From [Clostridium] celerecrescens 18A (lineage in GTDB: Bacteria; Bacillota; Clostridia; Lachnospirales; Lachnospiraceae), in assembly GCF_002797975.1 (NCBI RefSeq), contig NZ_PGET01000001.1, positions 4,886,001 to 4,950,000 on the forward strand: a stretch of 64,000 bases of DNA, written 5' to 3'. The notes below the pieces were generated by a model. That model made no database searches, had not been told where the DNA came from, and saw only the letters and a program-made list of their open reading frames with translations. The position numbers and the translations under genes were made by a program. Shown here piece after piece: positions 40,936 through 61,735 of the stretch (position 1 is its first letter; the number at the start of each line of letters is the position of its first letter).

Positions 40936-41748
40936 ATGAATTATCTGGTTTCCTTAATAAAAGAAATTATTGCAAAGAGAAAGCTTATTCTGGATCTTTC
41001 AAAGGCGGATTTTAAAAAACGGTTTGTAGGCTCCTATTTCGGGATTGCCTGGATGTTTTTGCAGCCTATGGCAACCGTGCTGGTATACTTTTTCGTATTC
41101 CAGATGGGCTTTAAAAGCGTACCTCCGGTCCCGGATTACCCTTACGTGCTCTGGCTGATACCTGGCATTGTGCCATGGTTTTATTTCAGTGAGGTACTGA
41201 ATATGGGAACGGGCTGTCTTCAGGAATATAATTATCTGGTGAAAAAGGTGGTGTTCCGGGTAGAGATCCTTCCGGTCATCAAGATGATTTCCTGCCTGAT
41301 GGTACATGGTATATTTGCAATCATCATGATCCTGGTATTTTTCTGTTACGGCTTCCTTCCAATGGCAAGCTGGATCCAGATCCTGTATTATTCCTTTGCA
41401 AGCTCCATGCTGTCACTGGCTATTGCGTATTTTACCAGTGCCATTCATGTATTTTTCAAGGATATGGCTCAGATCATAGGAATCTGCCTGCAGTTTGGCA
41501 TGTGGATGGTGCCGATTATGTGGGCACCTGAGATGTTTCCGGCAATTCCATCCTGGCTGCCGGTACTGCTTAAGCTAAATCCTTTCTATTATATCGTAGC
41601 CGGATACCGTGACAGCATGCTGACCGGAAACTGGCTGACAGAACGGCCGACCCTGGGACTATATTTCTGGACAGTGACCATAGTCCTGATGCTTTTAGGG
41701 CTGAAAGTATTTAAAAAACTGCGCCCACACTTTTCTGATGTACTATAA
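40936..41748 (+). CDS. ABC-2 type polysaccharide export permease (Wzm/TagG-like)
   Basis: 270 residues with six membrane segments. KADFKKRFVGSYFGIAWMFLQP near the N-terminus and the LKLNPFYYIVAGYRDSML segment near the C-terminus are hallmarks of the Wzm/TagG/RfbA export permeases. It works with the Wzt ATPase at 41930 to export a completed lipid-linked polymer. A family A structured element lies between the two genes, an unusual place since wzm and wzt are normally adjacent or overlapping. Confidence 0.93.
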   Translation: MNYLVSLIKEIIAKRKLILDLSKADFKKRFVGSYFGIAWMFLQPMATVLVYFFVFQMGFKSVPPVPDYPYVLWLIPGIVPWFYFSEVLNMGTGCLQEYNYLVKKVVFRVEILPVIKMISCLMVHGIFAIIMILVFFCYGFLPMASWIQILYYSFASSMLSLAIAYFTSAIHVFFKDMAQIIGICLQFGMWMVPIMWAPEMFPAIPSWLPVLLKLNPFYYIVAGYRDSMLTGNWLTERPTLGLYFWTVTIVLMLLGLKVFKKLRPHFSDVL

Positions 41749-41895
41749 CCTTCACGAAAGCAATGAGTAGTGCGAAATATGGCAGAAAAAGATTTCGTTG
41801 TGCCTGCACATAAGAATATCTTTTCCTGACATATTTCATAGGGCGAATGCCCGTGAGCTTGCGAAACTGAAAGTTTCGCAAGCTGCACTACGGAC
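41744..41895 (+). repeat. Structured dispersed element, family A copy 1, in the wzt leader
   Basis: A TATAAC hexamer (41744-41749) lies 5 bases before CGAAAGCAATGAG. Predicted stems are P1 GTAGTGC/GCACTAC (41767-41773 with 41885-41891), P2 long and imperfect from GAAATATG (41774-41781) to CATATTTC (41830-41837), P3 GGGC-GAAT-GCCC (41841-41852) with a GNRA-like loop, and P4 GCTTGCGAAACT/AGTTTCGCAAGC (41857-41883). CGGAC closes the element. Wzt starts 35 bases downstream. Confidence 0.8.
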
Positions 41896-41929
41896 CTGTG
41901 GGATAATTTTATGTAACATGGAGGATTCA

Positions 41930-43273
41930 ATGTCCGTAGAATGGAACAACAAAGCAATATCTGTTAATAACGTAACAAAAATCTACAAACTGTACGATAA
42001 GCCCTCCGACCGATTAAAGGAGGCTTTAAGCATAACCCACAAAAACTATCACAAAGATTTCTATGCCCTAAACGGCATTTCTTTTGATGTAGAAAAAGGA
42101 CAAACCGTAGGAATCATCGGAACCAATGGATCAGGCAAGTCCACCATACTAAAGATCATAACCGGAGTCCTCACCCCCACCTCAGGCAGTTTAGAGGTAA
42201 ACGGTGTGATTTCTGCTCTTTTAGAGCTGGGGGCCGGATTTAATATGGATTATACCGGAATCGAAAACATTTACATGAATGGCACCATGATGGGCTTCTC
42301 CAAAAAAGAAATGGATGGAAAGCTTCAGGACATCTTAGACTTCGCAGACATCGGTGACTTCGTTTATCAGCCGGTAAAAACCTACTCAAGCGGTATGTTC
42401 GTTCGTCTGGCGTTTGCGCTGGCGATCAACGTGGAGCCTGAAATCCTGATCGTTGACGAGGCCTTGTCCGTTGGAGACGTGTTTTTCCAGGCCAAATGCT
42501 ACCGCCGAATGGAAGATATCCGCCAGAATGGAACCACGATATTAATGGTCACTCATGATATGGGTGCAATTATCAAATATTGTGACCGCGTAGTTGTATT
42601 AAACAAAGGCAACTTTATCGCCGAAGGAGAGCCCGGAAAGATGGTGGATCTCTATAAAAAGATCCTGGCAAATCAAATGGACGACCTTGGAGAAGAACTG
42701 GAAGAAATAAGAAGCGGTATATTAAACGATTTTTCCGGAGACCAGGCAGTTCTGGCACAGTCCAAAAACTCCCGCCAGGAAGGCTTAATGAAGGAAAAAC
42801 TGACGATCAACCCAACCCGTACCGAATACGGCGATAAGAGAGCGGAGATCGTGGATTTCGGACTTCTGGATGAAAGAGGAAATGTTACCAACCTCCTTCT
42901 TAAAGGAGAACGCTTTACCATTAAAGAGCGTATCCATTTCCATACCAAAATCGAGACACCCATCTTTACCTACACCATCAAAGATAAACGGGGAGCCGAT
43001 TTAACCGGCACCAACACCATGTACGAGGCCTCTGATGTGCAGGCCGTGGGAAAAGGCGATGAATATGAGGTGGAATTTAACCAGAAAATGACCCTTCAGG
43101 GAGGGGAGTATCTTCTTTCCATGAGCTGCACCGGATTTGAAAACGGAGAGCATGTGGTTTACCACCGCCTGTATGACATCGCAAATATTACGGTCATTTC
43201 CAATAAGAATACAGTAGGTATTTATGATATGGAACCGGAAGTAAGCGTAAAGCTTCACCGGGCAGGAGAATGA
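41930..43273 (+). CDS. Polysaccharide export ABC ATPase with C-terminal carbohydrate-binding domain (Wzt-like)
   Basis: 447 residues from ATG 41930 (GGAGG 6 bases before); the upstream in-frame codons lie inside the family A element and are unlikely to be translated. Walker A is GTNGSGKSTI, signature YSSGMFVRL, Walker B EILIVDEALSVGD. The N-terminal extension KIYKLYDKPSDRLKEAL is typical of TagH/Wzt. From about residue 285 a beta-rich C-terminal domain (RAEIVDFGLLDERG, YDMEPEVSVKLH) matches Wzt-C, which in Gram-negatives recognises the terminal modification of the finished chain. This suggests length- or cap-dependent export. Confidence 0.92.
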   Translation: MSVEWNNKAISVNNVTKIYKLYDKPSDRLKEALSITHKNYHKDFYALNGISFDVEKGQTVGIIGTNGSGKSTILKIITGVLTPTSGSLEVNGVISALLELGAGFNMDYTGIENIYMNGTMMGFSKKEMDGKLQDILDFADIGDFVYQPVKTYSSGMFVRLAFALAINVEPEILIVDEALSVGDVFFQAKCYRRMEDIRQNGTTILMVTHDMGAIIKYCDRVVVLNKGNFIAEGEPGKMVDLYKKILANQMDDLGEELEEIRSGILNDFSGDQAVLAQSKNSRQEGLMKEKLTINPTRTEYGDKRAEIVDFGLLDERGNVTNLLLKGERFTIKERIHFHTKIETPIFTYTIKDKRGADLTGTNTMYEASDVQAVGKGDEYEVEFNQKMTLQGGEYLLSMSCTGFENGEHVVYHRLYDIANITVISNKNTVGIYDMEPEVSVKLHRAGE

Positions 43274-43286
43274 GGAGGAAACGTCC

Positions 43287-44066
43287 ATGAATGATTTAAG
43301 CCCTGAACTTAAGAAGCTGTTTTTAAAATATGATGGAGATACGAAAAAGCTGCTGCAGGAGAATCCAAACCTGGATTACCTCTATGCATTGTCAGATATA
43401 CGCGAGAACCTTCTGGAGTGGTATGAATTTGATGAGGAGAGCTCTCTGCTTCAGGTAGGGTCTGATTACGGCGCCCTGACCGGCTTATACAGCAGGCGGG
43501 TCAAAGAGGTAACCGTCCTTGACCCTGACAGTAATAATCTGTCATTTAATCGTTTGCGCAATGAAAAACAGGGAAACATCCGATATATAACCGGAGATTT
43601 AGACACCTTTGAAGAGGATGGCTTTAACTATGTGGTGATGGTGGGCTCCTTAAGGCCGCCATATGACAAACACATAAGAAAAGCAAAATCCCTTTTAAAG
43701 CCGGAAGGAAAGCTGATCCTTTCCGTATGCAACCGCCTGGGACTTAAATATCAGGCCGGTGCGGTTCCTGATCAGGACCGGCTTTCAAGGGCAGAGGTCC
43801 TGGAGCTTTTGTGCGGAGAGGACGGAGGATCGGGTAATGCCGAATTCCATTATCCCATGCCCGACTACCGGCTGCCCATCACCCTGTATTCCGATCAATA
43901 TCTGCCAGGTAAGGGAGATTTAACTCACGCCATTCTGGCCTATGATTATCCGAAATATCTGAAGTTTGATTTAGGAAAGATGTTCGACGAGGTATGTGAG
44001 GGAAAGCAGTTTGAGACATTTGCCAATTCATTTTTAACCATTTGGAGCCGTCATGAAGAAAATTAA
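43287..44066 (+). CDS. Class I SAM-dependent methyltransferase
   Basis: 259 residues. The SAM-binding motif I region is SSLLQVGSDYGALTGLYSRR, with VTVLDPDSNNL as the acidic ribose-binding strand, ITGDLDTF as motif II and YVVMVGSLRP as motif IV. The G-x-G loop reads GSDYG, slightly degenerate. It lies 13 bases after wzt and overlaps the next gene by 14 bases. Given the Wzt C-terminal domain, methylation of the chain end as an export signal is a plausible role. That is inference; the substrate is unknown. Confidence 0.82.
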   Translation: MNDLSPELKKLFLKYDGDTKKLLQENPNLDYLYALSDIRENLLEWYEFDEESSLLQVGSDYGALTGLYSRRVKEVTVLDPDSNNLSFNRLRNEKQGNIRYITGDLDTFEEDGFNYVVMVGSLRPPYDKHIRKAKSLLKPEGKLILSVCNRLGLKYQAGAVPDQDRLSRAEVLELLCGEDGGSGNAEFHYPMPDYRLPITLYSDQYLPGKGDLTHAILAYDYPKYLKFDLGKMFDEVCEGKQFETFANSFLTIWSRHEEN

Positions 44067-47000
44067 CTTTGTAAAATACAACAAAACCCGCAGGGAAGAG
44101 TTTCAGATCCGCACAAGTCTGGTGGAAGAGGAAGGCTGTCCATTTGTGGAGAAGACAGCCTTAAGGCCTGAGGGTGTTGCTCATATAAAATCACTTGGTG
44201 AAAAATATAAAAGCCTTGCGGCGCAAAGCCAAAAGCTTAAGGTCGCCGGGGTTTCCATAAGTCCGGATGAAAAAACCGCCCGTTTCGAATTCCTTAAAGG
44301 CCAGACCCTTTCTGAGCTGCTTGGAAGGGGGATCCGTAACGGAAAGGTTTCCGTATCCCATATGGAAGACGGGCTTTCCCTGATCCTGGACGTAAAGGAA
44401 AACTGCATCATCCCCTTCACCATTACGGCCGAATTTGAAGAGGTATTTGGAAAACTCGCTAAGGCTGATGAAAAAGATTGGGCGTTTAAAACCTCCAATA
44501 TTGACTGCCTTTTTGAGAACATCATGATGACCGAGGACGGTCCTTATCTCCTGGACTATGAATGGGTATTTTCCTTCCCAGTCCCAGTCACTTTTATAAA
44601 GTTCCGGGTTCTTTATTACTTTTACGAGCAGTATAAAAGCCTTTTGTCCTATGGTTCCATGGAAGCCTTTATGGAAGAGTTCGGCGTGGAGGAAGAGCGT
44701 ATTGGAACGTATGAGGAGATGGAACGCAGCTTTCAGGATTATGTCCATGGAGAGAACCAGCAGATCTATCTGGTCAATTACATGCAGGAAACCCATTCCC
44801 TGCCCGAGGATATGTACGGTTTATCACAGGTGATCGATGAGACAAAGGAACGCCTTTCCCAGATGGAAATGGAGATACGGGAAAAGGATGTGCTTATTAC
44901 TAGGCAGCAGGAAGAAAAGCGCCTGACCGACAATCATGTATCCAACCAGGAGATGATCATTCAGACCCTCCGGGCGGATTGCGACAATATGAGAGAGATG
45001 ATCACCTGGCTTCAGGGGCACGAGGCATTAACCTTCCGTGCCAGAAGAAAGCTGGGAAGAATCTTTAACGAAAGGTTCCCAAAAGGGACCAGAAAGCGGA
45101 AGCTGCTGTTTTATGCCAAGGACACGGTATTTCATCCGCTGAAATCTTTCCGCCTCTATACAACTGAGGAAGGGAGGAATCTGATCGAAGGAGATATGAA
45201 GATTGGAGATGCCTACCGTACCCATGGAAAGCTCCGTTTTATTAAAGAGGGCCATCCCATGGTATCCATCGTGATCCCGGTATACAATCAGATTCATTAT
45301 ACCTATGCCTGTCTTGCATCTATTCTGGAACATACCAGGGATGTGGTATATGAGGTCATCATAGCAGACGATGTTTCTACAGATGCAACGGCTGAACTTT
45401 CAAAATTTACGGAAAATGTGGTCATATGCCGAAATGAAACCAACCAGGGATTTTTGCGGAACTGCAATCAGGCAGCCCAAGCTGCCAGAGGAAAATATGT
45501 CATGTTTCTTAACAATGACACCCAGGTAACAGAAGGGTGGCTAAGCAGCCTGGTGAACTTAATCGAATCAGACCCAACCATCGGCATGGTAGGGTCCAAG
45601 CTGGTTTATCCTGATGGGCGCCTGCAGGAAGCAGGGGGGATCATCTTCCGTGACGGTTCCGGCTGGAATTACGGACGCCTTGATGATCCGGACAAGCCGG
45701 AGTACAACTATGTAAAAGATGTGGACTATATATCCGGAGCCGCCATTCTTCTTTCCAATGACTTATGGAAGCGGATCGGCGGATTTGATGACCGGTTTGC
45801 TCCTGCCTATTGTGAGGATTCTGACCTTGCCTTTGAGGTGCGTAAGGCGGGCCTTCGGGTGGTTTACCAGCCTTTATCCAAGGTCATACATTTTGAGGGC
45901 ATTTCCAACGGAACGGATGTCAATGGCTCAGGCCTTAAGCGGTACCAGGTGGAAAATGGCCGTAAGTTAAGGGAAAAGTGGGCAGCTGAATTCAAACTGC
46001 AGAGTGAAAACGACGGAAATCCCGATGTATTCCGGGCCAGGGAGAGAAGCCAGGGCAAAGACATCATTCTGGTGGTGGATCATTATGTTCCCACCTATGA
46101 CCGGGATGCCGGTTCCAAGACCACCTTCCAGTACTTAAAGATGTTTTTGGAAAAGGACTATGTGGTGAAGTTCCTGGGAGATAATTTCCTTCATGAGGAA
46201 CCTTATTCCACCGTTTTGCAGCAGATGGGAATTGAGATTCTTTACGGCAAGGAATTCCAGGTGAAAATCTGGAACTGGTTAAAGGAGCATGGAGATGATA
46301 TCAAGGTAGCTTATTTGAACCGTCCCCATATTGCTGCCAAATATATAGATTTTATCAAAGATAAAACAAACATTAAGATGATCTATTATGGGCATGACCT
46401 TCACTTTTTAAGGGAAGGCCGGGAGTATGAGCTGACCGGAGATCCTAAGAAAAGGGAGTCCTCTGAATACTGGAGGTCCGTGGAGCTTCGCCTGATGAGA
46501 AAGGCTGCGGTATCCTATTATCCTTCTTATGTGGAACGGGAAGCCATTCATGAGATAGAGCCTACCATCCGTGTGAAAGCCATTGTGGCCTATGTTTATG
46601 AAAAGTTCTTAAACCACATTCCTGATAACTTTGAAGAAAGGGAAGGACTCTTGTTTGTAGGAGGATTTGCCCATCCGCCTAACGCAGATGCAGTTTTGTG
46701 GTTTGCACAGGAAATATTCCCCCTGATCCGGGAACGGCTTCCCATCGATTTCTATATCGTGGGTTCCAAGGTGACGGATGAAATCAAGGCTTTGGAGCAG
46801 CCTGGCAGCGGAATCATTGTAAAGGGATTTGTATCAGAAGAGGAACTGACAAGACTCTATTCAAGCTGCAGGGTAGTCGTGGTGCCTTTGCGTTACGGTG
46901 CAGGAGTTAAGGGAAAAGTCATCGAAGCCTTATATAACGGAGCTCCGGTGGTCACCACCTCCATCGGTGCAGAGGGAATTCCGGAGGCAGAAAAGGTCAT

Positions 47001-47157
47001 GGTTGTGAGAGATGAACCGGCTGCCTTTGCAGAGGAGGTTATTTCCCTGTATCAGGATACGAAACGATGCAAGCAGATGTGTATGGAAACCCAGAATTAT
47101 ATCCGCAGCTATCACAGTATAGATGCTGCCTGGAACGTAATCGGAGAAGACTTTTAA
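44053..47157 (+). CDS. Three-domain fusion: kinase-like domain, GT2 and GT4 glycosyltransferases
   Basis: 1034 residues. Residues of about 1-245 resemble a protein-kinase/APH-like fold: NIDCLFENIMM has the D-x4-N spacing of the catalytic loop (Asn replacing the usual His before it), and LLDYEW matches the metal-binding DxE/DFG position. A coiled coil spans about 265-325 (ETKERLSQMEMEIREKD region). The GT2 domain starts near 398 (VSIVIPVYNQ, ADDVSTDAT, LNNDTQV, CEDSDLAFEVRKAG). From about 670 a GT4-like GT-B domain follows (VVDHYVPTYDRDAGSK, YGHDLHFL, RYGAGVKGKVIEALYNGAP). It may both phosphorylate and glycosylate the chain end. Confidence 0.85.
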   Translation: MKKINFVKYNKTRREEFQIRTSLVEEEGCPFVEKTALRPEGVAHIKSLGEKYKSLAAQSQKLKVAGVSISPDEKTARFEFLKGQTLSELLGRGIRNGKVSVSHMEDGLSLILDVKENCIIPFTITAEFEEVFGKLAKADEKDWAFKTSNIDCLFENIMMTEDGPYLLDYEWVFSFPVPVTFIKFRVLYYFYEQYKSLLSYGSMEAFMEEFGVEEERIGTYEEMERSFQDYVHGENQQIYLVNYMQETHSLPEDMYGLSQVIDETKERLSQMEMEIREKDVLITRQQEEKRLTDNHVSNQEMIIQTLRADCDNMREMITWLQGHEALTFRARRKLGRIFNERFPKGTRKRKLLFYAKDTVFHPLKSFRLYTTEEGRNLIEGDMKIGDAYRTHGKLRFIKEGHPMVSIVIPVYNQIHYTYACLASILEHTRDVVYEVIIADDVSTDATAELSKFTENVVICRNETNQGFLRNCNQAAQAARGKYVMFLNNDTQVTEGWLSSLVNLIESDPTIGMVGSKLVYPDGRLQEAGGIIFRDGSGWNYGRLDDPDKPEYNYVKDVDYISGAAILLSNDLWKRIGGFDDRFAPAYCEDSDLAFEVRKAGLRVVYQPLSKVIHFEGISNGTDVNGSGLKRYQVENGRKLREKWAAEFKLQSENDGNPDVFRARERSQGKDIILVVDHYVPTYDRDAGSKTTFQYLKMFLEKDYVVKFLGDNFLHEEPYSTVLQQMGIEILYGKEFQVKIWNWLKEHGDDIKVAYLNRPHIAAKYIDFIKDKTNIKMIYYGHDLHFLREGREYELTGDPKKRESSEYWRSVELRLMRKAAVSYYPSYVEREAIHEIEPTIRVKAIVAYVYEKFLNHIPDNFEEREGLLFVGGFAHPPNADAVLWFAQEIFPLIRERLPIDFYIVGSKVTDEIKALEQPGSGIIVKGFVSEEELTRLYSSCRVVVVPLRYGAGVKGKVIEALYNGAPVVTTSIGAEGIPEAEKVMVVRDEPAAFAEEVISLYQDTKRCKQMCMETQNYIRSYHSIDAAWNVIGEDF

Positions 47158-47218
47158 ACGGCAAACAGGTAAACCCGTCCCGGTGTGACCGGGCACGGTG
47201 CCATGCCGTTTTAAGCCT
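47157..47218 (+). other. GC-rich nested stem-loop in the intergenic region
   Basis: ACGGCA near 47158 pairs with TGCCGT near 47204-47214. It encloses CCGT-CCCGGT-GTG-ACCGGG-ACGG, a 10-bp stem with a 3-base loop. TTTT follows, so it may act as a terminator or leader structure. The rest of 47219-47307 shows no gene. Confidence 0.5.
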
Positions 47219-47307
47219 TTGGCTATGCCGGACGGCAGAATGCAAGGGCGTACTTGAATGAAGAGAAAGGAACTATGTAGAAAGAGAGGGGAAAGGAAGG
47301 GGATCGC

Positions 47308-48399
47308 ATGGAAGAGAAAAAAAGAGACCGGCTTCTGTTCTGGGATATTTTAAAGGGAATCGGAATCGTATCCATAGTGTTTGGTCATTCACAGAACCTG
47401 GGAATTGCCATTCGGACGGTGTATTATTACCATCTGGCCATATTCTTTTTCATCTCAGGATACTTGTATAATGAAGAGCGTTACGGGGATGCCCCCTTTG
47501 ACTTTTTTGCAAGGCGGTTAAAGAATATGTGGGTGCCCTATTTCTGTTATGGTGGCCTGTTCGTTTTACTACATAACCTGCTTTCAAAGTATCTGCTTTT
47601 TCTGTCGGATGCACACTACGGCAAAAAGGAGATGATCCTTGCCATGACAAATACCCTGTTCTTACGATGCCCGGAGGCCCCGTCAGGTGCGATGTGGTTC
47701 GTGCCGCTTATGCTGGGGGCAGGAACAGGCTTTTCGGTCATTCTCTGGTTCTGCAGGAACTATCTTCCGGATTCCTTCCGGCCATGGGCAGCAGCGGCTC
47801 TCTGCGCAGGAGCAGGGCTTATTGGTGCAGCCCTGATCCGGAGGGAGATTTACTTAAACTACCACCTTCAGACCGCCCTATTGGTGATTCCGGTTTACTA
47901 TGGCGGATATGCTGTGCGGACATGGAAGATTTCCATAGAAAAATATGTGACATGGTATGGTGCCGCTTTATGCGCAGGGCTTTTCTATTATTTCCTGATG
48001 TTTACAGAGGAAAGTGTGGAGCTTTCTGCCAATCAGATACCAGGAGGGATTAACTTTTATATCATATCTGCAGCCGGTATTTATCTTTGCTGCTTTGCAG
48101 CCAAGTGTCTGCAGAAGATTCCCATCGCCGGGAAGTCTGCGGCACTGCTTGGAAAATATTCCTTTGATATCATGGCTCTGCATTTTCTGGCATTTAAGGT
48201 CTGTGACCGGATTTATGCCCAGATGATACTGGAGCCCACGGAAAATCAGGGAGGCTTCCCCCATTCTTATCCGGAACTTCATGTTCTGTATCTTGTTCTG
48301 GGAATTGTCCTTCCGGTCTTATTTGCAATTGGGGCAAGAAAGGTCATCCAAGGTCTGGGAGGCATGCTTCGGTCCCGGACAGGGAGTCCGTGGAAATGA
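47308..48399 (+). CDS. Acyltransferase family 3 membrane protein
   Basis: 363 residues with about ten membrane segments. The N-terminus FWDILKGIGIVSIVFGHS contains the conserved His of the family, and FFISGYLYNEE and APSGAMWFVPLML are further marks. These integral proteins O-acetylate or otherwise acylate sugars at the membrane. In this cluster it would decorate the exported polysaccharide. It is separated from the fusion gene by 150 bases and from hddC by another family A element. Confidence 0.9.
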   Translation: MEEKKRDRLLFWDILKGIGIVSIVFGHSQNLGIAIRTVYYYHLAIFFFISGYLYNEERYGDAPFDFFARRLKNMWVPYFCYGGLFVLLHNLLSKYLLFLSDAHYGKKEMILAMTNTLFLRCPEAPSGAMWFVPLMLGAGTGFSVILWFCRNYLPDSFRPWAAAALCAGAGLIGAALIRREIYLNYHLQTALLVIPVYYGGYAVRTWKISIEKYVTWYGAALCAGLFYYFLMFTEESVELSANQIPGGINFYIISAAGIYLCCFAAKCLQKIPIAGKSAALLGKYSFDIMALHFLAFKVCDRIYAQMILEPTENQGGFPHSYPELHVLYLVLGIVLPVLFAIGARKVIQGLGGMLRSRTGSPWK

Positions 48400-48429
48400 T
48401 CTTCCTGGATTGTTCTAAAGGATGTATGA

Positions 48430-48503
48430 TATACTATCCGCGAAAGCAATGAGCGGTGCGAAATAAGTCTGGGAAAGATTATCTTAGTCCTTGAACCGCG
48501 GAC
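48430..48503 (+). repeat. Structured dispersed element, family A copy 2 (internally deleted), in the hddC leader
   Basis: TATACT (48430-48435, preceded by TGA, an extended -10) lies 5 bases before CGAAAGCAATGAG. P1 is GCGGT/ACCGC (48453-48457 with 48495-48499), followed by CGGAC. The P2 base GAAATAAG is retained, but P3 and P4 are missing. hddC starts 45 bases downstream. A further TATAAT at 48510-48515 may be a second promoter. Confidence 0.72.
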
Positions 48504-48548
48504 TTATGTTATAATAACCATAAGAAAAAATATCAGGAGGGTACAGTT

Positions 48549-49334
48549 ATGCAGGCAGTTTTACTGGCAGGCGGCCTTGGCACACGGCTTCGTTCCGTAG
48601 TAAGCGACAGACCAAAGCCAATGGCGCTGATCGGAGACAAGCCATTTATGGAATATGTAGTATTGGAGCTGGTCCGCCAAGGAGTGACGGAGATAATTTT
48701 CGCCGTAGGCTATAAAGGCTCGATGGTAGAAGAATATTTTAAAGACGGATCCAAATGGGGGATCCGGGTTTCTTATGCTTATGAAGAAGAGCTGTTAGGA
48801 ACCGCAGGAGCCATTAAAAATGCAGGATCTCAAATACATTCAGACCGATTCTTAGTACTAAATGCTGATACCTTTTACCGGATTGATTACAACAAGCTTA
48901 TGGAACTTGGCAAAGAACGGGATTTAGACATGGCCCTGGTACTCCGGGAGGTGCCGGATGTGTCCCGTTACGGACAGGCTTTTTTAGATGATGGCTGGCT
49001 TACGGCCTTTAATGAGAAGACGGAGGAAAAACGCCGGGGAACCATAAACGGCGGCATTTATTTACTCAGGCGTGATCTGCTTGATGAGATTCCTGAAGGA
49101 AAGGTGTCCCTGGAACAGGTAATGATTCCAAAGTGGCTTTCAGAAGGGAAAAAGCTGGGCGGCCTTGTAAGCAGCGGGTATTTCATTGATATAGGTATTC
49201 CGGAGGATTATTACCGGTTTGCAGAAGATGTAGGGAAACACCTTACAGGTATACCTTTACACCCGATGAAGCGGGGTGCGTTGTGCCCGGAGAGCATGGG
49301 CGGAGAGGGGAAAGGAGAGGTGAACTTATGGTAA
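48549..49334 (+). CDS. hddC: D-glycero-alpha-D-manno-heptose 1-phosphate guanylyltransferase
   Basis: 261 residues. The nucleotidyltransferase signature is LLAGGLGTRLRSVVSDRPKPM, quoted as a motif, with FMEYVVLELVRQGV, LNADTFYRID for the metal and FIDIGIPEDYYRF near the end, matching HddC. It activates the heptose 1-phosphate with GTP to give the GDP-sugar. The neighbouring HddA, GmhB and GmhA genes complete the pathway, which fixes the assignment better than sequence alone. Its last 20 residues (GIPLHPMKRG ... MGGEG) are encoded by a short dispersed repeat. It overlaps hddA by 7 bases. Confidence 0.9.
   Translation: MQAVLLAGGLGTRLRSVVSDRPKPMALIGDKPFMEYVVLELVRQGVTEIIFAVGYKGSMVEEYFKDGSKWGIRVSYAYEEELLGTAGAIKNAGSQIHSDRFLVLNADTFYRIDYNKLMELGKERDLDMALVLREVPDVSRYGQAFLDDGWLTAFNEKTEEKRRGTINGGIYLLRRDLLDEIPEGKVSLEQVMIPKWLSEGKKLGGLVSSGYFIDIGIPEDYYRFAEDVGKHLTGIPLHPMKRGALCPESMGGEGKGEVNLW
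49247..49320 (+). repeat. Short repeat shared with the second flippase gene (family B)
   Basis: Blocks GGTATACC-TTTACACCC, CCCGGA-AGCATGGGCGG and GGGG-AAA-GAGAG match 21264-21316 in order. An extra segment with CGGG/CCCG pairing is inserted after the first block. The repeat ends with the ribosome site of hddA. Confidence 0.6.
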
Positions 49335-50398: not shown

Positions 50399-50447
50399 TC
50401 TCAAAGGGCGCATCAGTTAAAAAGAGAGGAAACAGAAGGGAAGAACC

Positions 50448-51026: not shown

Positions 51027-51031
51027 GAAAC

Positions 51032-51667: not shown

Positions 51668-51697
51668 GCGTGAGTTAAAATAAGAAAGGGGCTAAAG

Positions 51698-53497: not shown

Positions 53498-53514
53498 GGG
53501 CATAGGAGAAACGC

Positions 53515-54894: not shown

Positions 54895-54942
54895 CGGATC
54901 CGGTAGTACCATCAGTAAACAAAATGACAGACGGGGGTTTTT

Positions 54943-57204
54943 ATGGGTCGATTGCAGAAGCATAAATATGGAATCCTGCTGTTCATGGTTTTTTCGGCAG
55001 CAGGGATCCTGTATTCTCTGAATCAAATTTTAAACCAGGAAGTTTTTCAGTGGATTATGAACCAGAGGGAATATAAGACCATGATGGCAGAGACGGCGGA
55101 GCTGTTTGCTGCCTTCTGTTTATCAGGGTTTTTATTCCCTAAGAGCAGGCAGAAACTTGTGGCGGCGGTCCTTATTACGGCCGTCTTTTTGTGGGCGCAT
55201 GTGGCCTTTGTTCCGGTGCTTGTATCCGGTCTTTATCTGGCATATATCCTGTTTTTCGGACGTTTTCTCCGGGTATCCTTATGGAGACTGCCAAAGGAAG
55301 ATGGACTGGCTTCTGACTTTCTCACCGGTGCTGTCTTTCTCATCGTTATATTTTGCCTTATGTCAGCAATTGGCATTGGCTCCATCGCTCACCTGACCGT
55401 GTTTGTCTTTATCAGCGGCGGAATCCTGCTTCTTTTCGGAAGATACTGTCTGGGAAACGGAGAGAATGGGCATGATTTGGTTTTTAGCGGCAAAGAGGTT
55501 TTTTTAATAGCATTTCTCCTGACCATGGTGTGCCTCCAGGCGGGGCGGCTTAACATTGCCGTAGATTACGACAGCCTGTGGTATGGGGTCAGGTCCCGGT
55601 ATATCCTGGACAATGGACATGGAATTTATGAAAACCTGGGAACCATTGGGATCGTCTACACTTACTCCAAGGGCTTTGAGGTTCTGACCCTGCCCCTGTC
55701 CCAGCTTCCTTCCTATAGCTTTGTGACCTCGATTAATCTGTGGCTGTCCCTGGGAGTTCTTTTTATGAGTTATAAAATCGGACGATTTTATATGAAACGG
55801 GAGCAGGCGATCTTTTTGGCGGCCCTGTTGTCAGGAGTTCCAGGCATTATGAATATGGCAGTCACAGCCAAAAGTGATATCATTACGCTGCTTGTTCAGG
55901 AGATCATGTTGTATTACCTGCTGTGCTATATAAAAGCGGGTAAAAAGTCCTGGCGTTATCTGGGCTACGGCACAGCGGCATTTTTCCTCAGCCTGACCTT
56001 AAAACCAACTGCTCTGATCTTTTCCACCGCTGTCTTTGGAATGGGATTATTATATCTGTTAGGGAAGTTTTTGCTTCCCAGATTCGGAGCGGAAGGGGGA
56101 AATATTGGCGGGTTGGCAGTTGTGGCAGGCTCACTTTTGGCTTTAGGAGGAATCTGGGCAAGAACTCAGGTATTAACAGGTCTTCCCCTTACCTCGGTGT
56201 TCTCCTCCCTGCTTACAAGGATAGGATTTCGATTGAAATATCCGTTCATGGTTAATACCATACCCAATTCAGGCGCAGGAATGTCCATAAAGGAAAGGAC
56301 TGTGCACCTGGCAAACCGGCTCCATGGATTTTTCTTTTGCCCTGTAGGAGAGGATATGGATCATGTGATCCTGGCCTGGGGTGGATTTCTGCTTTACTTT
56401 CTTCTCTTATTGTGGATTGTAAGCTGTTTTTACGGCAAGAATGTGGATAGAGGGAAAAAATCTCAGCTGTCCGTTTTCCTAAAAGTCATCTATGTACCGT
56501 TTTTGGCGGTCAATCTTATCAGTTTAGGTATGCTGACCCAGGTTGACGGGAATTACTTCATGCTGTTCTATGTACTTACGGCGGTCTATGTCTTAAAGGC
56601 AGCGGTTGAAACAGGGGAAAAGACTGTCTGGCGGGGAGGCGTAGGAGCCGGAGTCTGGGTGTTTATGTTTGCTGTATTTTTCACAGCCATGACCAGCTGG
56701 AACTGGAGCCTTGGATTTACACCTGTGTCATTTCATCATAAAGGCTATTACAACCATCAGGAAGCAGCAAGACAGGACATGGTATCAAAGGGAAATGGAG
56801 AGATATGGGATTTCCTTGCTGCCGACCCGGAAACCCGTCTCATTGCCATTGGAGACCATCCGGATGTACTGGCATTCCCATGTAACGTTCAGTCTTATGA
56901 TGACATAACAGGGGTATGGGGGAATGTGACCCTGGTAAAGAAAATGGATTATTTCGTGGAATTTATGGATTATGCAAAATCAGATTATGTTTATGTCCAG
57001 GCAGGCTATACAGGAGAAGAGAACCGTTCCTATACCCTGGTCAGGGATTTGATCGAATGGGGGAAACTGATACCTGTGTGTTATGATAACGGAAACCTTT
57101 TGGCCGCAGTGGAGGTGAACGGGGATTACAGTGAAAAATCAGCACGGGCATTGACAGAATTTGAACAATGTTATATAAAAAAGAAAGCAAATGATAATCA
57201 ATAG
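54943..57204 (+). CDS. Large polytopic membrane protein, GT39/GT-C-like
   Basis: 753 residues. Membrane segments at about 10-25 and 45-60 are followed by clusters to about residue 570, then a soluble domain of about 180 residues. NIAVDYDSLWYGVRSRYILD has the acidic DYD loop expected of GT-C enzymes, and TAKSDIITLLVQEIML resembles the conserved second-loop motif of ArnT/PMT-type proteins. It could transfer a sugar from a polyprenyl-phosphate donor. The GtrB-like gene downstream would make such a donor. The substrate is unknown. Confidence 0.68.
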   Translation: MGRLQKHKYGILLFMVFSAAGILYSLNQILNQEVFQWIMNQREYKTMMAETAELFAAFCLSGFLFPKSRQKLVAAVLITAVFLWAHVAFVPVLVSGLYLAYILFFGRFLRVSLWRLPKEDGLASDFLTGAVFLIVIFCLMSAIGIGSIAHLTVFVFISGGILLLFGRYCLGNGENGHDLVFSGKEVFLIAFLLTMVCLQAGRLNIAVDYDSLWYGVRSRYILDNGHGIYENLGTIGIVYTYSKGFEVLTLPLSQLPSYSFVTSINLWLSLGVLFMSYKIGRFYMKREQAIFLAALLSGVPGIMNMAVTAKSDIITLLVQEIMLYYLLCYIKAGKKSWRYLGYGTAAFFLSLTLKPTALIFSTAVFGMGLLYLLGKFLLPRFGAEGGNIGGLAVVAGSLLALGGIWARTQVLTGLPLTSVFSSLLTRIGFRLKYPFMVNTIPNSGAGMSIKERTVHLANRLHGFFFCPVGEDMDHVILAWGGFLLYFLLLLWIVSCFYGKNVDRGKKSQLSVFLKVIYVPFLAVNLISLGMLTQVDGNYFMLFYVLTAVYVLKAAVETGEKTVWRGGVGAGVWVFMFAVFFTAMTSWNWSLGFTPVSFHHKGYYNHQEAARQDMVSKGNGEIWDFLAADPETRLIAIGDHPDVLAFPCNVQSYDDITGVWGNVTLVKKMDYFVEFMDYAKSDYVYVQAGYTGEENRSYTLVRDLIEWGKLIPVCYDNGNLLAAVEVNGDYSEKSARALTEFEQCYIKKKANDNQ

Positions 57205-57234
57205 CATATCCACTTGATTCATTAGGAGGCACAT

Positions 57235-58170
57235 ATGGGAAAAACAATATCGGTCGTGGTATCATGCTACAATGAGGAACTGGCTCTTGACCAGTTCTAT
57301 CAGGAAACGGCCAGCATTTTAAATAAACTTAACTGGGACTATGAACTGATTTTCGTCAATGACGGGAGCCAGGATGGCACCATGAAGATTCTGGACGGCC
57401 TGTCCAGGAAGGACAAAAAGGTAAAGGTCATCAGCTTTTCCAGAAACTTCGGACATGAGGCAGCTATGATTGCCGGTCTGGATTACAGCAGCGGGGATGG
57501 GGTCGTCTGCATGGATGCAGATTTACAGCATCCTCCCCAATATCTGCCGGAGATCGTCAGGAGGCTTGAGGAAGGCTATGATGTTATCAATATGGTGCGC
57601 ACGAAAAATGAGTCCGCAGGGTGGTTTAAGAATTTTGCCTCCTCTGCCTTTTATCATTTGATCAACGTGCTTTCTGATGTGAAATTTGAACCGAACGCTT
57701 CTGACTTTTTTGTAATATCCCGGCGGGCTGGTGACGTACTTCGGGATAATTACAGGGAAAAGGTACGTTTTCTGCGGGGATATGTGCAAAACATTGGGTT
57801 TAACCGGACTACCATTGAATATGAGGCAGGAGTTAGGGTGGCAGGAGAAAGCAAATACAGCATTAAGAAGTTGATGGTATTTTCACTGAATACCATCATG
57901 TGCTTTTCTAATCTTCCGCTAAAACTTGGAATCTATGCCGGCTGCGGTGCAGGCATTCTGGGGATCATCATGATGATTTATACCATATGGAGCTGGGCAA
58001 GAGTAGGAACGCCAAACGGGTATGCTACCACCATTGTGCTGATTTGCTTTATGTTTTCGGTGTTGTTCCTGATTGTGGGGATTATAGGTAATTACATTGC
58101 CATCCTGTTTGCGGAGCTTAAGGACAGGCCTATTTATATTGTCGGAGAGACGAAGAATTTTACGGAGTAG
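57235..58170 (+). CDS. GtrB-like polyprenyl-phosphate glycosyltransferase (GT2 with two C-terminal membrane helices)
   Basis: 311 residues. GT2 motifs are SVVVSCYNEELALDQFY, FVNDGSQDGT, SRNFGHEAAMIAGLDY and MDADLQHPPQYLPE with the DxD. FEPNASDFFVISRRA and the amphipathic interface helix RVAGESKYSIKKL match GtrB/DPMS. Two C-terminal helices (about 235-257 and 268-292) anchor it in the membrane. It should charge undecaprenyl phosphate with glucose or another hexose for the GT-C-like proteins encoded upstream. It has an AGGAGG site and is the last gene of the second glycan cluster. Confidence 0.93.
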   Translation: MGKTISVVVSCYNEELALDQFYQETASILNKLNWDYELIFVNDGSQDGTMKILDGLSRKDKKVKVISFSRNFGHEAAMIAGLDYSSGDGVVCMDADLQHPPQYLPEIVRRLEEGYDVINMVRTKNESAGWFKNFASSAFYHLINVLSDVKFEPNASDFFVISRRAGDVLRDNYREKVRFLRGYVQNIGFNRTTIEYEAGVRVAGESKYSIKKLMVFSLNTIMCFSNLPLKLGIYAGCGAGILGIIMMIYTIWSWARVGTPNGYATTIVLICFMFSVLFLIVGIIGNYIAILFAELKDRPIYIVGETKNFTE

Positions 58171-58175
58171 ATAGA

Positions 58176-58268
58176 GATTTTTAGATAAAGAATTTTAGAT
58201 AAAGAGTTTTAGATAAGAATTTTAGATAAAGAATTTTAGATGAAGAATTTTAGATAAAGATTTTATGA
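58176..58268 (+). repeat. AT-rich tandem repeat, about six units of 14-15 bases
   Basis: The unit AAGAATTTTAGATA recurs with small changes (GAGTTTT, GATGAAG) from just after the GT2 stop up to the terminator. It has no coding frame and looks like replication-slippage expansion in the 3' untranslated region. Confidence 0.9.
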
Positions 58269-58273
58269 TAAGT

Positions 58274-58319
58274 AATGCGCTTTGAATCGGGCTTAAAAAG
58301 CCGTTTTTCAAAGCGCATT
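58274..58319. terminator. Strong terminator at the end of glycan cluster 2
   Basis: AATGCGCTTTGA pairs with TCAAAGCGCATT (12 bp), enclosing an inner GGCTT/AAGCC hairpin. It lies between convergent transcription units: GT2 on plus, lysozyme on minus. Confidence 0.85.
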
Positions 58320-58404
58320 CTCTTGTTTGTTGAGCTTTATAGAGCTAAATCTTTATATGAGATATCATTGTGGATCTGCTTGCAACAGACTCATATGCAG
58401 TCTA

Positions 58405-60210
58405 TTAATGTATTCCAGGACCGATTTCTTTTGTTTGGTTGGTAGCAGAATCGGTAGGGGCTGTTTTGGTCCCCGTTTGACCAGCCTGGCCGGCCTGGCT
58501 TTCTGGGGTACTAGTTCCTTCTGGCTGATCGGTGGCTGTCTGCGGAGTCACAGTACATACGCCATTAGCATCAGCGGTATAGGAAACTCCATCAAGTACA
58601 AAGGTAGCAGAGGCAGCCATCTTTCCGTCAGCTGGATTTAAGTAATACTGCTGTCCGCCTACCTGTGTCATACCGGTTGCCATGGCGCCGCTTCCGCCAA
58701 AGTAATACCAATATCCATCGACCTGTCTCCAGCCTACGGTCATCTTACCGGAAGAAGCGCTTAAATAGTACTTAGCTCCCCGTTCCTCAAGCCATCCGGA
58801 CTGCATCTTTCCGTCATTACCAATGTAGTACCAGTTTCCATCTGGATTGATCCAGCCTGTAGTCATGGCTCCGTTCTGGTTAAAGAAATACCAGCTGTTA
58901 TCAATCAGCTGCCATCCGATTGAGACAGCGCCGTTTCCTGCCAGATAATACTTTGAGGAGCCGTCGGTATGCCAGCCCGTTGCCATGGAACCGTCGTTAT
59001 TTAAGTAATACCGGGCGCCGTTATTATCCAGCCATCCGGTGGACATCACGCCGTTTTCCTGTAGGAAGTACCACTTGTTGTTTAAGTTTTTCCAACCGGT
59101 AGCCATTTGGCCGGAAGAAGGATCCAGGTAGTAATACTGGCCGTTTAATTCCTGCCATCCGGTGGTCATGATACCATCAGAACCTAGGTAATACCGTGAA
59201 CCGTTGTCAGTAAGCCATCCGGTGTTCATGGAACCGCTTTGATTGAAGAAATACCATTTGTCGGAAAGCTGCTTCCAACCGGTGTTCATTCGTCCGGAAG
59301 TTTCGTCAAGATAATAGCGCAACCCATCCTTATCAACCCATCCGGTGGCAGTCAGTCCTTCTTCGTTCATATAGAACCAACCTGATCCATCGTTGATCCA
59401 GGTGTTTTTCTGGATCGAATAATTCTGGTAGTAATAGGTCTTTCCTCCAATGGTTCTCCACATATTTCCCGGGAGCTTTGGAGTTAAGTCCTTATAGAGG
59501 AAATCTATGTCAACGTTCCCGTTGATCCCGTTAATCGAGCCGGTGCTGGTTACCTGCCACATGATCGGGTTGGAATAAACGTGTTTTGCCTCATAACGGG
59601 CAACCCATACGTCGTAATGCATATTAGATAAATCGATTTTATTTGATAACCAGTAATCATTGGCATACACAATGGGATAATATCCAGCATCTGCAATTCG
59701 TTGACAGAATGCATTGATTATCTCACTCACCTGTGCCGGCGGAAGGGTACCAAGGGTGGCACTGTCTTCTGCGTCAAAAGCGATGGGAAAGGAGATTGGA
59801 TAATCCTTTACCAGACTGAGGACAAAATCTGCTTCCTCTCTGGCCATATCAGGAGTGGTAGCCAGAGAATAGATATAAGCGCCGACTTTCAGACCTGCCG
59901 CTGATGCACCTTGTACATTGGTATGGAAATAAGGGTCAACAACACCCTTGGATCTGGTGCCCAGCATGACAAAGCTTACATCATCTGCTGCTACAGACGC
60001 CCAGTTTACGTTTCCCTGCCATCTGGAAACGTCGATTCCTCTGGCAATTACCTCTTCAATCACCGTACCGTTTGCAAGCTGATAATGGCCATTGACCTTT
60101 TCATAGCCTGCTGCCCAGGAATTCATGGCCGGGCCAAACCCCGCAGACATTCCCATAAAGGCACATAATGCTGCTGCTGCAAACCGTATGCCTAATTTCT
60201 TGTGTCTCAA
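58405..60210 (-). CDS. Secreted GH25 lysozyme with C-terminal cell-wall (choline)-binding repeats
   Basis: 601 residues. The signal peptide reaches the NSWAA region (about residue 35). The GH25 domain covers about 50-255: GIDVSRWQGNVNW with the first catalytic Asp, IAFDAED with the DxE acids, and MWQVTSTGSINGINGNVDID. About 14 repeats of roughly 20 residues follow (pattern GW-x-xxG-x-YYL...G-MxTGW), then a Pro/Thr/Gln-rich tail. GH25 enzymes cut the MurNAc-GlcNAc bond. The repeats resemble choline-binding modules, and a choline kinase/cytidylyltransferase gene lies 1.6 kb upstream on the same strand. AAGGAGG precedes a TTG- or ATG-type start near 60210. Confidence 0.93.
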   Translation of the reverse strand: MRHKKLGIRFAAAALCAFMGMSAGFGPAMNSWAAGYEKVNGHYQLANGTVIEEVIARGIDVSRWQGNVNWASVAADDVSFVMLGTRSKGVVDPYFHTNVQGASAAGLKVGAYIYSLATTPDMAREEADFVLSLVKDYPISFPIAFDAEDSATLGTLPPAQVSEIINAFCQRIADAGYYPIVYANDYWLSNKIDLSNMHYDVWVARYEAKHVYSNPIMWQVTSTGSINGINGNVDIDFLYKDLTPKLPGNMWRTIGGKTYYYQNYSIQKNTWINDGSGWFYMNEEGLTATGWVDKDGLRYYLDETSGRMNTGWKQLSDKWYFFNQSGSMNTGWLTDNGSRYYLGSDGIMTTGWQELNGQYYYLDPSSGQMATGWKNLNNKWYFLQENGVMSTGWLDNNGARYYLNNDGSMATGWHTDGSSKYYLAGNGAVSIGWQLIDNSWYFFNQNGAMTTGWINPDGNWYYIGNDGKMQSGWLEERGAKYYLSASSGKMTVGWRQVDGYWYYFGGSGAMATGMTQVGGQQYYLNPADGKMAASATFVLDGVSYTADANGVCTVTPQTATDQPEGTSTPESQAGQAGQTGTKTAPTDSATNQTKEIGPGIH

Positions 60211-60380
60211 TGTGATACCTCCTTATCATTCGAGTACTATGTAACGTTGTACGCTTTCTTGCTTCCGGAATGAAAACATAGGCGCACAAAAACAGAAGAA
60301 ACTTACTTAGCAAGTTCCCCGGTAATCACGGCGGCACCATGCAAACTTATTTTTATTTGTATGGTCCGATATCCGTGTAA
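60211..60380 (-). promoter_or_regulatory. Structured leader of the GH25 gene, class unknown
   Basis: On the minus strand this 170-base leader contains GGTGCCGCCG, ACCGGGGAAC and a small AACTT/AAGTT hairpin, downstream of a weak TTTACA/TACAAA pair. It is much longer than needed for ribosome binding and GC-rich in an AT-rich setting. I compared it from memory with the cyclic-di-AMP and cyclic-di-GMP riboswitches and could not match either. Confidence 0.35.
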
Positions 60381-60415
60381 ATAAAAGGGGTATCCGCGCC
60401 GAGGTGCAGATACCC
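60381..60415 (-). terminator. Terminator of the 60440-61540 repeat-protein gene
   Basis: On the minus strand GGGTATC pairs with GATACCC around a GC-rich 13-base loop and is followed by CTTTTATTT. It lies 25 bases after the stop. Confidence 0.75.
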
Positions 60416-60439
60416 ACACAGATACTAATTCCTATGAGA

Positions 60440-61540
60440 TCAGCCGGGGCCTGACGTAAGCCCTGGTGATAGCTGATATACGCCATTGCTTGAAGTATTG
60501 GAGGAACCACCAGGAGTATCGTTAGAAGAGCTTCCCGGTGCCCCGCTTAAGGTATTACTGTCGGAAGAGGAGCTTCCTCCCGGCCCGCCGGAGCCTGATG
60601 GAGTCGAGGTGGTCCCACCTGGCGTATTGGAGTTGCCTGTTGTTGAGCCACCGGGGGTGTTTCCGCCAGTTGAACCAGAAGGAGAACCGGAAGCATTTCC
60701 CTGGTAAGCTCCGTTGGAACCAAAGGTGTAACTTGTTCCATCAATGGTAAGGGTAGTGTTTGCCGCCATCTTACCGGTAGATGGATCAAGATAATAATAA
60801 ACACCGGAGAGCTGTACCCAACCGGTCATCATATGACCGGAATCATTAAAATAATAATAGGAACCGTCGATCTGTTTCCAGCCGTGGGCCATCTTTCCGC
60901 TGGTATCCATGTAATACTTGTTGGTTCCATCACTGAGCCAACCGGTCATCATCCGCCCCAGCACAGACTTGGCATCCACGTTCAGATAGTAGTAGGCATT
61001 ATCAATCTGTTTCCATCCGGTGACCATCTTGCCGTCAGAGCCGAAGTAAAACCAGTCGCTTCCAATCTGCCCCCATCCAATGGTACATTTTCCGTTTTCT
61101 TTGAAATAATACCAGCCGCCGTCCATTTCACGCCATCCGGTGGACATGGATCCGTCGCCCTTCATGTAGTAGTAGTCATTGCCTATTTTTAACCAGCCCT
61201 TAACTAGGACACCTGTATCATCCATTAGGTAATAGTATTTACCGCCGTTTTGTATCCATTTGGTAGCCATGGCGCCGTTGGAATGAAAATAGTACCAGTT
61301 ACCGTTGATCTGTTTCCAACCAGTAGCCATAAAGCCTGTGGAGAGATCAAGAAAATAAAAGGTCCCGTCAGATGTTTTTACCCAACCTTTATGAGTAGAA
61401 CCATCCTGGTCTATGTACTTCCACTGAGTGCCTTCTGAAACCCAGCCGGTGGCCCCCCAGGCCGTACCTGCCGGTATCAGAGTAGAGGTTCCTACAAGCC
61501 CTGCTATAAGCAGTGCTGTCATTTTCTTTCTGTATTGCAT
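60440..61540 (-). CDS. Secreted cell-wall-binding repeat protein with Ser/Gly/Thr/Pro-rich tail
   Basis: 366 residues. The signal peptide is KKMTALLIAGLVGTSTLIPAG with cleavage near AWGA. About ten repeats follow directly (GWKQINGNWYYFHSNGAM-type, about 20 residues each) up to about residue 270, with no catalytic domain. The remaining 85 or so residues are almost only Ser, Gly, Thr, Pro and Asn (GGSTTGNSNTPGGTT), like a wall-spanning or glycosylated linker. It may be a surface structural or adhesin-like choline-binding protein. The start is 46 bases downstream of a family A element, and a GGAGGAAGG site precedes it. Confidence 0.88.
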   Translation of the reverse strand: MQYRKKMTALLIAGLVGTSTLIPAGTAWGATGWVSEGTQWKYIDQDGSTHKGWVKTSDGTFYFLDLSTGFMATGWKQINGNWYYFHSNGAMATKWIQNGGKYYYLMDDTGVLVKGWLKIGNDYYYMKGDGSMSTGWREMDGGWYYFKENGKCTIGWGQIGSDWFYFGSDGKMVTGWKQIDNAYYYLNVDAKSVLGRMMTGWLSDGTNKYYMDTSGKMAHGWKQIDGSYYYFNDSGHMMTGWVQLSGVYYYLDPSTGKMAANTTLTIDGTSYTFGSNGAYQGNASGSPSGSTGGNTPGGSTTGNSNTPGGTTSTPSGSGGPGGSSSSDSNTLSGAPGSSSNDTPGGSSNTSSNGVYQLSPGLTSGPG

Positions 61541-61585
61541 ACCGTCCTTCCTCCTGTCTAGCCGTTTTATTCATATGCTGTAGTC

Positions 61586-61735
61586 CGCAGTGCAGCGAGT
61601 AAAACCGTAGGTTTTACTCGTTCACGGGCTTTCACCCTATGAAATAAGACGGATAAAGATTTTCGTTGTGCGGGGCACAACGAAAATCTTTATCCGTCTT
61701 ATTTCGCACTGCTCATCGCTTTCGTGAACATTATA
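61586..61735 (-). repeat. Structured dispersed element, family A copy 3, in the leader of the wall-binding protein
   Basis: On the minus strand an extended -10 (TGG-TATAAT, hexamer 61735-61730) lies 5 bases before CGAAAGCGATGAG. P1 is GCAGTGC/GCACTGC (61712-61706 with 61592-61586). P2 is a perfect 31-bp stem with a 3-base loop (61641-61671 with 61675-61705). P3 is GGGT-GAAA-GCCC (61637-61626), and P4 is an 11-bp perfect stem (61596-61606 with 61610-61620). CGGAC closes the element. This is the best preserved copy. Confidence 0.82.

Follow-up and report, generated by a model that had tools for sequence, protein, structure and literature searches.

The 64,000-nucleotide stretch of [Clostridium] celerecrescens 18A analyzed here (contig NZ_PGET01000001.1, positions 4,886,001 to 4,950,000 of the forward strand; the window below) carries three copies of a noncoding element, about 145 to 160 bp long when complete. 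The first is a full copy (41753..41896, plus strand; 153.9 bits with R1, the covariance model described below). It lies between a 270-amino-acid open reading frame (ORF; 40936-41748, plus strand), which ends in a TAA codon at 41746..41748 (plus strand), and wzt (41930..43273, plus strand), which encodes an ATP-binding cassette transporter with a Wzt_C domain (Pfam PF00005, PF14524). The second copy is partial (48439..48504, plus strand; R1, 24.4 bits) and precedes a nucleoside triphosphate (NTP) transferase gene (48549..49334, plus strand; PF00483) that the original prediction, made by a model from the letters alone, had named hddC. The third is again a full copy (61582..61726, minus strand; R1, 150.1 bits) and precedes a gene for a wall protein with choline-binding repeats (60440..61540, minus strand; PF19127, PF01473). 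As predicted, CGAAAG is preceded at a distance of 5 nucleotides by TATAAC in copy 1, TATACT in copy 2, and TATAAT in copy 3, and the start codons lie 35 to 46 nucleotides beyond the elements. We conclude from the analyses below that this is a real, widespread, mobile structured RNA element, and that it is neither the mark of a surface regulon nor a portable promoter.

Both full copies fold better than their shuffled counterparts (copy 1, −60 kcal/mol, z = −7.6; copy 3, −82.5 kcal/mol, z = −15.7), and the predicted four-way junction was recovered with strong covariation. Helix P1 closes a long P2, P3, and P4; in copy 1, the 5′ strand of P1 (41767..41773, plus strand) pairs with 41885-41891 in both the fold and the consensus. 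Among ten full copies of the source genome, 25 of the 52 consensus pairs had two-sided changes in at least one sequence (RNAalifold). The prediction had also listed copy 2 as a clear copy. The element is indeed present there, but an intact fold was not borne out, since 68 of 200 shuffles folded equally well (z = −0.43). Elsewhere (G and L numbers are our handles for genomes and loci), the same locus holds a full-length element in G009 and G012, a degenerate full-length one in G006, partial ones in G557 and G002, and none in G008. Given these longer copies at the same place in relatives, copy 2 is read as an internal-deletion remnant.

A pseudoknot, spotted by eye and then counted, joins the first three letters of the element, CAC (41753..41755 of the plus strand in copy 1), to GUG just after hairpin P3 (GTG, 41853..41855, plus strand). 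The count used 56 sequences: 96 of 109 alignment rows were full length, and 56 of these had not been found by a pattern that fixed GTGA. All three pairs were present in 42 of the 56, compared to a shuffled mean of 32.4 (maximum of 39 in 2,000 shuffles) and 0 to 2 for slid versions of the helix. The middle pair was A-U in 31 sequences, G-C in 12, G-U in 5, and nonstandard or gapped in 8; A-C never occurred.

Copies that have stayed at one locus also covary. An old copy behind a cdaR-like regulator gene (L037, L058-L061, L069, L070, L086, and L175; C terminus of the protein YMENQDY) is common to nine genomes of two genera, Lacrimispora and one other, and has an ftsE-like gene on its 3′ side in the loci read. 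In its nine sequences, 91.2% of cells pair, and two-sided changes number 35, versus 11.8 after shuffling and 0 to 4 in slid versions. The copy in front of trpS (seven orthologues) gave 18 two-sided cells versus 5.1 shuffled (maximum, 11) and 0 to 2 slid. Gene conversion is unlikely at the cdaR-side copy because several of these genomes hold only one to four R1 matches. On these alignments, the fold appears to be under selection where the element sits, at least at the cdaR-side and trpS loci. Two changes at the tip of P2 were seen in passing: the tip is inverted in L029 (which is also L007), and its arms in L030, window copy 3, are perfect complements, CGTT..AACG instead of CGTT..ATAAG. Both look as if a template switch had occurred within the hairpin.

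R1 was built from the ten full copies of the source genome. Scoring the best 150 of 3,221 candidates in this 5.27-Mb genome gave at least 20 matches that were full length and exceeded 60 bits, split 11 to 9 between the strands, together with weaker matches and short remnants; rows that span model positions 22 to 86 on the opposite strand reflect the P2 palindrome and are not copies. In the family and class surveys the best 10 to 12 candidates per genome were scored, and copy numbers are therefore lower bounds. Among 21 genomes (the source and 20 relatives), 14 had an R1 match, comprising all 13 Lacrimispora genomes, source included, and one of the eight others; copy number differed widely among the 14. 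Across the Lachnospiraceae (one genome per genus, source included), a match at E ≤ 1e-4 was found in at least 102 of 250 genomes, and a class-level survey gave at least 9 of 291, again with the source. The original prediction had proposed a search of Rfam for an existing class; Rfam 15 returned no family at gathering score in the window and none for the element. In short, two fifths of the Lachnospiraceae genera surveyed hold a structured RNA for which these scans gave no Rfam match at gathering score. No description of it was found in the literature searched, whose coverage ended short of the supplement of PMC2864571 on Clostridiales-1. Carriage by phages or plasmids was considered and rejected: the viral_contigs set held no exact match to the element pattern, the plasmids no match of window copy 1, and the phages no match of window copy 3.

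The position of the element relative to promoter-like hexamers is fixed beyond chance. We reduced 142 instances to 135 distinct elements, leaving out short remnants and R1 loci L073, L074, L078, L086, L087, L173, L179, L183, L188, and L197. At least five of the six letters of TATAAT occurred exactly 3 nucleotides before CACG in 81 of the 135 (the exact hexamer in 61), compared to a rate of 1.2% at other offsets (242 of 20,046); the TG of an extended −10 accompanied 59 of the 81 boxes, and position −2 was T in 127 of the 135 elements. A few of these hexamers are coding by chance or overlap, as at groEL (L025), at L024, where the box lies inside the end of the upstream ORF, and at wzt, where TATAAC (41744-41749) overlaps the last codons, CTA-TAA, of the 270-amino-acid ORF. 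Copies without a box favor a different boundary: 25 of the 46 with sufficient flank start −4 to +14 nucleotides from the stop codon of an upstream gene on the same strand (seven of the 25 represent one orthologous locus), and in some (L033 and L024) the element itself supplies that stop codon. Four copies stand directly behind a tRNA gene (L080, L081, L093, and L119), with between a 2-nucleotide gap and a 3-nucleotide overlap, and some follow a T run that resembles a terminator by eye (L082, L088, and L181).

The element is also oriented. Among the 116 of 135 elements with at least 500 nucleotides on both sides (orthologues not collapsed; gene-context counts rest on simple ORF calling), 63 were sense to both neighbors and 6 antisense to both. 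Since these two classes swap when the element is flipped, orientation relative to genes is not random, and the random orientation that the prediction had named as a refuting outcome was not observed. What did not hold is the confinement to surface-glycan and wall genes. The neighbors are functionally unrelated: besides Wzt, the NTP-transferase, and the choline-binding-repeat protein, they include trpS, groEL, and CbiC outside the window, as well as genes for a phosphotransferase system (PTS) IIB domain protein, a DnaB-like replication protein, and a zinc-dependent phospholipase-like protein. A regulatory RNA of a surface regulon, one of the two roles first suggested, does not fit copies beside such genes. 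The names trpS, groEL, ftsE, cdaR-like, ftsW, and glucokinase were read from translations.

Empty alleles were found at 13 of the 14 loci compared. At the trpS leader, 7 of 21 genomes were filled and 12 empty (one was unreadable at a contig edge and one had no match); empty alleles carry TTGACA-17-TACAAT where filled alleles have TATAAT, and the element starts just behind the box. At wzt, 5 of 21 genomes were filled and 16 empty, with the element behind the stop codon that ends the preceding gene. In the remaining filled alleles the sequence there is CTATAA (G557, G006, and G008) or CTGTAA (G002), and in the empty ones it is mostly CTGTAA, CTGTAG, or CTGTGA. The wzt TATAAC is accordingly poor evidence of a promoter, since it overlaps the stop codon and the other alleles read as stop variants. 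Twelve further loci were compared with the help of a joined query of downstream flanks and 60 stretches from relatives. Eleven had empty alleles (L021, L022, L024, L027, L028, L030, L032, L034, L035, L038, and 48439); at L029, the sole relative compared is filled.

These alleles bear on the second role first suggested, a small mobile element that carries its own promoter. A −10-like box stands at the same place in the empty alleles of the nearest relatives at L021, L022, L027, L028, L030, L035, trpS, 48439, and L024 (G001); the TATAAT 3 nucleotides before copy 3 (61730..61735, minus strand) is identical in the empty allele of G001. For G561 and G011 at L027 and G012 at L028, the script chose another hexamer, and the box is present by eye. 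At L024, the distant G562 and G005 lack the box, as does G010 at 48439. It therefore mostly belongs to the host promoter, being present in empty alleles too, or to be a copy of the duplicated target, and we rejected an element-borne 5′ promoter as a general rule; the mobility stood and the promoter did not. As a separate candidate, a recurrent TAYGNTAYAATA behind the element was considered as an outward promoter and rejected at four loci: it matches the duplicated native −10 at L022, L035, and 48439 and, by eye, native sequence at L032. An element-borne 3′ box may exist at other loci.

Insertion appears to have left a duplicated target at some sites. The left and right flanks overlap by 12 bp on the empty allele at L022, L035, and, by eye, 48439; the comparison was unusable at L028, L021, and wzt. 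Around copy 2, the 5′ duplicate is TATGATATACTA (48425..48436, plus strand, by eye), which holds the −10-like TATACT, the 3′ duplicate is TATGTTATAATA (48505..48516, plus strand, by eye), and the native counterpart in G008 is TATGATATAATA. The clean empty site of G008 perhaps arose by recombination between the duplicated 12-mers. The copy 3 locus, empty in G001, holds nine tandem head-to-tail units 140 bp apart in G012 (L299, G012:C1:4099900-4101460), and further tandem repeats occur in L141, L117, L144, L124, and L092. Short tandem repeats derived from the tail were observed directly behind the element in L028, L067, and L077 (about 20 nucleotides) and, longer, in L055. A composite transposon bounded by the two copies that lie 7.5 kb from each other (2.644-2.652 Mb) was considered and rejected, as nothing unusual was seen by eye in the intervening ORFs. 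Like miniature inverted-repeat transposable elements (MITEs), the element is dispersed, noncoding, and gained and lost at sites; judged by these sequence comparisons, it is mobile, MITE-like, and widespread in the Lachnospiraceae.

Repeats of this kind are known. BOX, RUP, and SPRITE of Streptococcus pneumoniae are likewise small interspersed repeats with strong RNA structure that are cotranscribed, and 36 BOX elements supply a gene's stop codon (excerpts of PMC3049150). Unlike the element, a single four-helix unit with a pseudoknot, BOX is built of boxA-boxB-boxC modules and has terminal inverted repeats similar to ISSpn2 (same excerpts). bcr1 to bcr3 of Bacillus cereus are MITE-like and lie in untranslated regions and between cistrons, and genes cotranscribed with bcr3 had a mean mRNA half-life of 3.6 versus 2.5 min (n = 39; excerpts of PMC3446304). 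They belong to another bacterial group and are likened here by description, not by sequence. The orientation of ERIC and Correia repeats relative to genes varies, whereas that of the element is biased and its −10 mostly the host's. ERIC and Correia are also small and intergenic and alter message cleavage, although the effect lowers stability, and Correia insertions can bring promoters (excerpts of PMC3049150). As these repeats are reported to trigger cleavage, the element's effect on messages could have either sign. Elements derived from IS200/IS605 leave a fixed target tetranucleotide in the flank and make no duplication; such an origin was rejected on inspection, because the flanks vary and empty alleles appear without CACG at the site. 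A group II intron derivative was set aside as well, with no Rfam gathering hit in the window and none at E ≤ 1 in 15 loci. The element is thus of a known kind as a mobile structured repeat, alongside BOX, bcr1-3, ERIC, and Correia, and as an RNA family it is uncatalogued in the searches made.

The closest likeness among RNA families is to Clostridiales-1 RNA (RF01699), which has P1, a long P2 with a GCUUGC-type tip, P3, and P4 in the same order and occurs in several copies in some genomes. Fourteen of 16 RF01699 hits examined (L151-L169) lie sense to and abut the stop of an upstream open frame; 24 hits had been listed, of which we dropped those without loci, those with short loci, and one that overlapped another in tandem, counting open frames of 100 codons or more and using no random control. 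The two also differ. Copy 1 searched alone scored 29.1 bits with RF01699, below the gathering score of 48, no match at E ≤ 1 appeared in a scan of 15 other element loci, and the RF01699 model found nothing in the source genome at E ≤ 0.001. The conserved letters differ, and no fixed-spacing −10 box was seen by eye at Clostridiales-1 RNA. The score test having failed, the element was not filed under RF01699. Clostridiales-1 is rated probably an RNA and probably not cis-regulatory in Table 1 of PMC2864571, seen in part; abutment to stop codons may be a placement rule for this unexplained RNA.

We lean, with somewhat better than even confidence, towards a mobile element that is kept in many places as an mRNA-stabilizing RNA. 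The comparisons show that the element has come and gone at many sites, either within 1 to 3 bases downstream of a −10 box or next to a stop codon, and that its copies lie mostly in sense, as the likely first stretch of an mRNA or a spacer behind the stop codon. In the conserved fold of its RNA, P1 closes the junction of P2, P3, and P4, and the pseudoknot ties the first letters to the joint between P3 and P4. Compensatory changes keep the stems in copies long at one locus, and other copies decay by internal deletion. We infer that such compact folding, whether at the 5′ end or between two cistrons, may shield the message from 5′-to-3′ decay and that, behind a stop codon, it may shield the upstream message from 3′ decay. 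If the fold shields messages in this way, harmless or useful copies would be retained beside unrelated housekeeping genes.

Several observations weigh against this explanation. Transcription usually starts 7 to 8 nucleotides behind the −10 box. The CAC strand of the pseudoknot lies at nucleotides 4 to 6 behind the box in promoter copies, upstream of that point, and may therefore be missing from their RNAs; a purine is kept at nucleotide 5. Either transcription starts early in these copies, or the pairing is limited to read-through transcripts or to DNA as it transposes. Fourteen of the 56 sequences do not form the full set of three pseudoknot pairs at these columns (e.g., L023, L025, L057, L186, and L187); in some, a shifted pairing may exist. 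The shuffle controls take no account of relatedness, and the alignments, fitted to the model, lean towards its structure. Further pair types at the cdaR-side copy are weaker (24 versus 19.5 shuffled, a value reached by 10 of 500 shuffles), and at trpS the covariation could be inflated by gene conversion between copies. Decay is evident in several copies (48439, L027 in G557, and L032 in G557 and G006), and many loci are thus under little or no selection. On the side of mobility, flank overlaps were 6 to 8 at L034, 7 at L024, and 7 at L022 against G010, and at trpS, L027, L030, and L038 they were −1 to −4, that is, no 12-bp duplication. No terminal inverted repeats were found by inspection, a partner insertion sequence not having been searched for: TNCACGAAAGC and CGGACT, at the two ends, do not form an inverted pair, and the only inverted part near them is the subterminal P1, of 7 bp. 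No mobilizing enzyme was found for the element. Among the precedents, neither bcr1 nor bcr2 was associated with decay, and the authors do not conclude that bcr3 is causal (excerpts of PMC3446304).

A broader proposal, which we regard as rather doubtful, would unite the element and Clostridiales-1 RNA in one ancient Clostridia superfamily of mobile sense RNAs placed at transcription and translation boundaries (−10 boxes, stops, terminators, and tRNA ends). Its members would act as portable 5′-end locks, in which the RNA closes off its own 5′ terminus with the pseudoknot and so keeps out 5′-to-3′ exonucleases; if so, the host would gain ready-made stable leaders by transposition.

Mobility together with the fixed −10 spacing amounts to a natural experiment, with filled and empty promoters of one gene in sister species, and such a comparison allows a direct test of how a 5′ RNA structure affects mRNA life.

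Three other accounts of the element were weighed. The element may be a purely selfish MITE, whose fold serves transposition only, as a DNA hairpin or transposase-bound structure, with position and orientation set by an asymmetric target (TATAAT or TAA) and the remaining insertions removed by purifying selection. We regard this as possible though not probable. In its favor are the empty alleles, the decayed copies, the tandem arrays, and the target duplicated at three loci; a motif common to TATAAT and TAA could fix its orientation, and part of the pseudoknot precedes the likely start of transcription. It accounts poorly, however, for compensatory stem changes in fixed copies (trpS and the cdaR-side copy common to another genus), for the lack of terminal inverted repeats by inspection, and for copies behind tRNA genes or T runs, sites that do not share the TATAAT/TAA motif.

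The complex conserved fold and pseudoknot, the position in 5′ leaders, and the lack of an Rfam family at gathering score would also suit a true cis-regulatory class (a riboswitch, attenuator, or protein-binding leader) that controls a regulon. We consider this improbable: the downstream genes are unrelated (trpS, cbiC, dnaB-like, PTS domain, and wzt), two copies stand in front of convergent genes (L033 and L040), and related species have gained or lost the element at individual sites, with no near-universal presence at orthologous genes over 14 loci. No terminator, Shine-Dalgarno switch, or other riboswitch expression platform was seen by eye, no search being aimed at them. A short leader peptide, ATG AGC AGT GCG AAA TAA, was rejected, as by eye neither the frame nor the ATG is kept. 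About as unlikely, in our estimate, is a retroposon resembling short interspersed nuclear elements, which would move through an RNA intermediate with a reverse transcriptase supplied in trans. Its appeal lies in the mostly sense insertion at likely transcript starts, the conserved RNA fold, the roughly 12 bp of duplicated target found at three loci, and the variable tail repeats. However, no group II intron family matched (window and 15 loci), and reverse transcriptase (RVT_1) genes do not track copy number in 12 genomes: G012, with at least 40 R1 rows, has none, and G001, with at least 7 rows, has 13. Nine of the 13 RVT_1 matches in G001, a low-copy relative, share one score, which suggests that group II introns or elements like them have recently been active in this genome.

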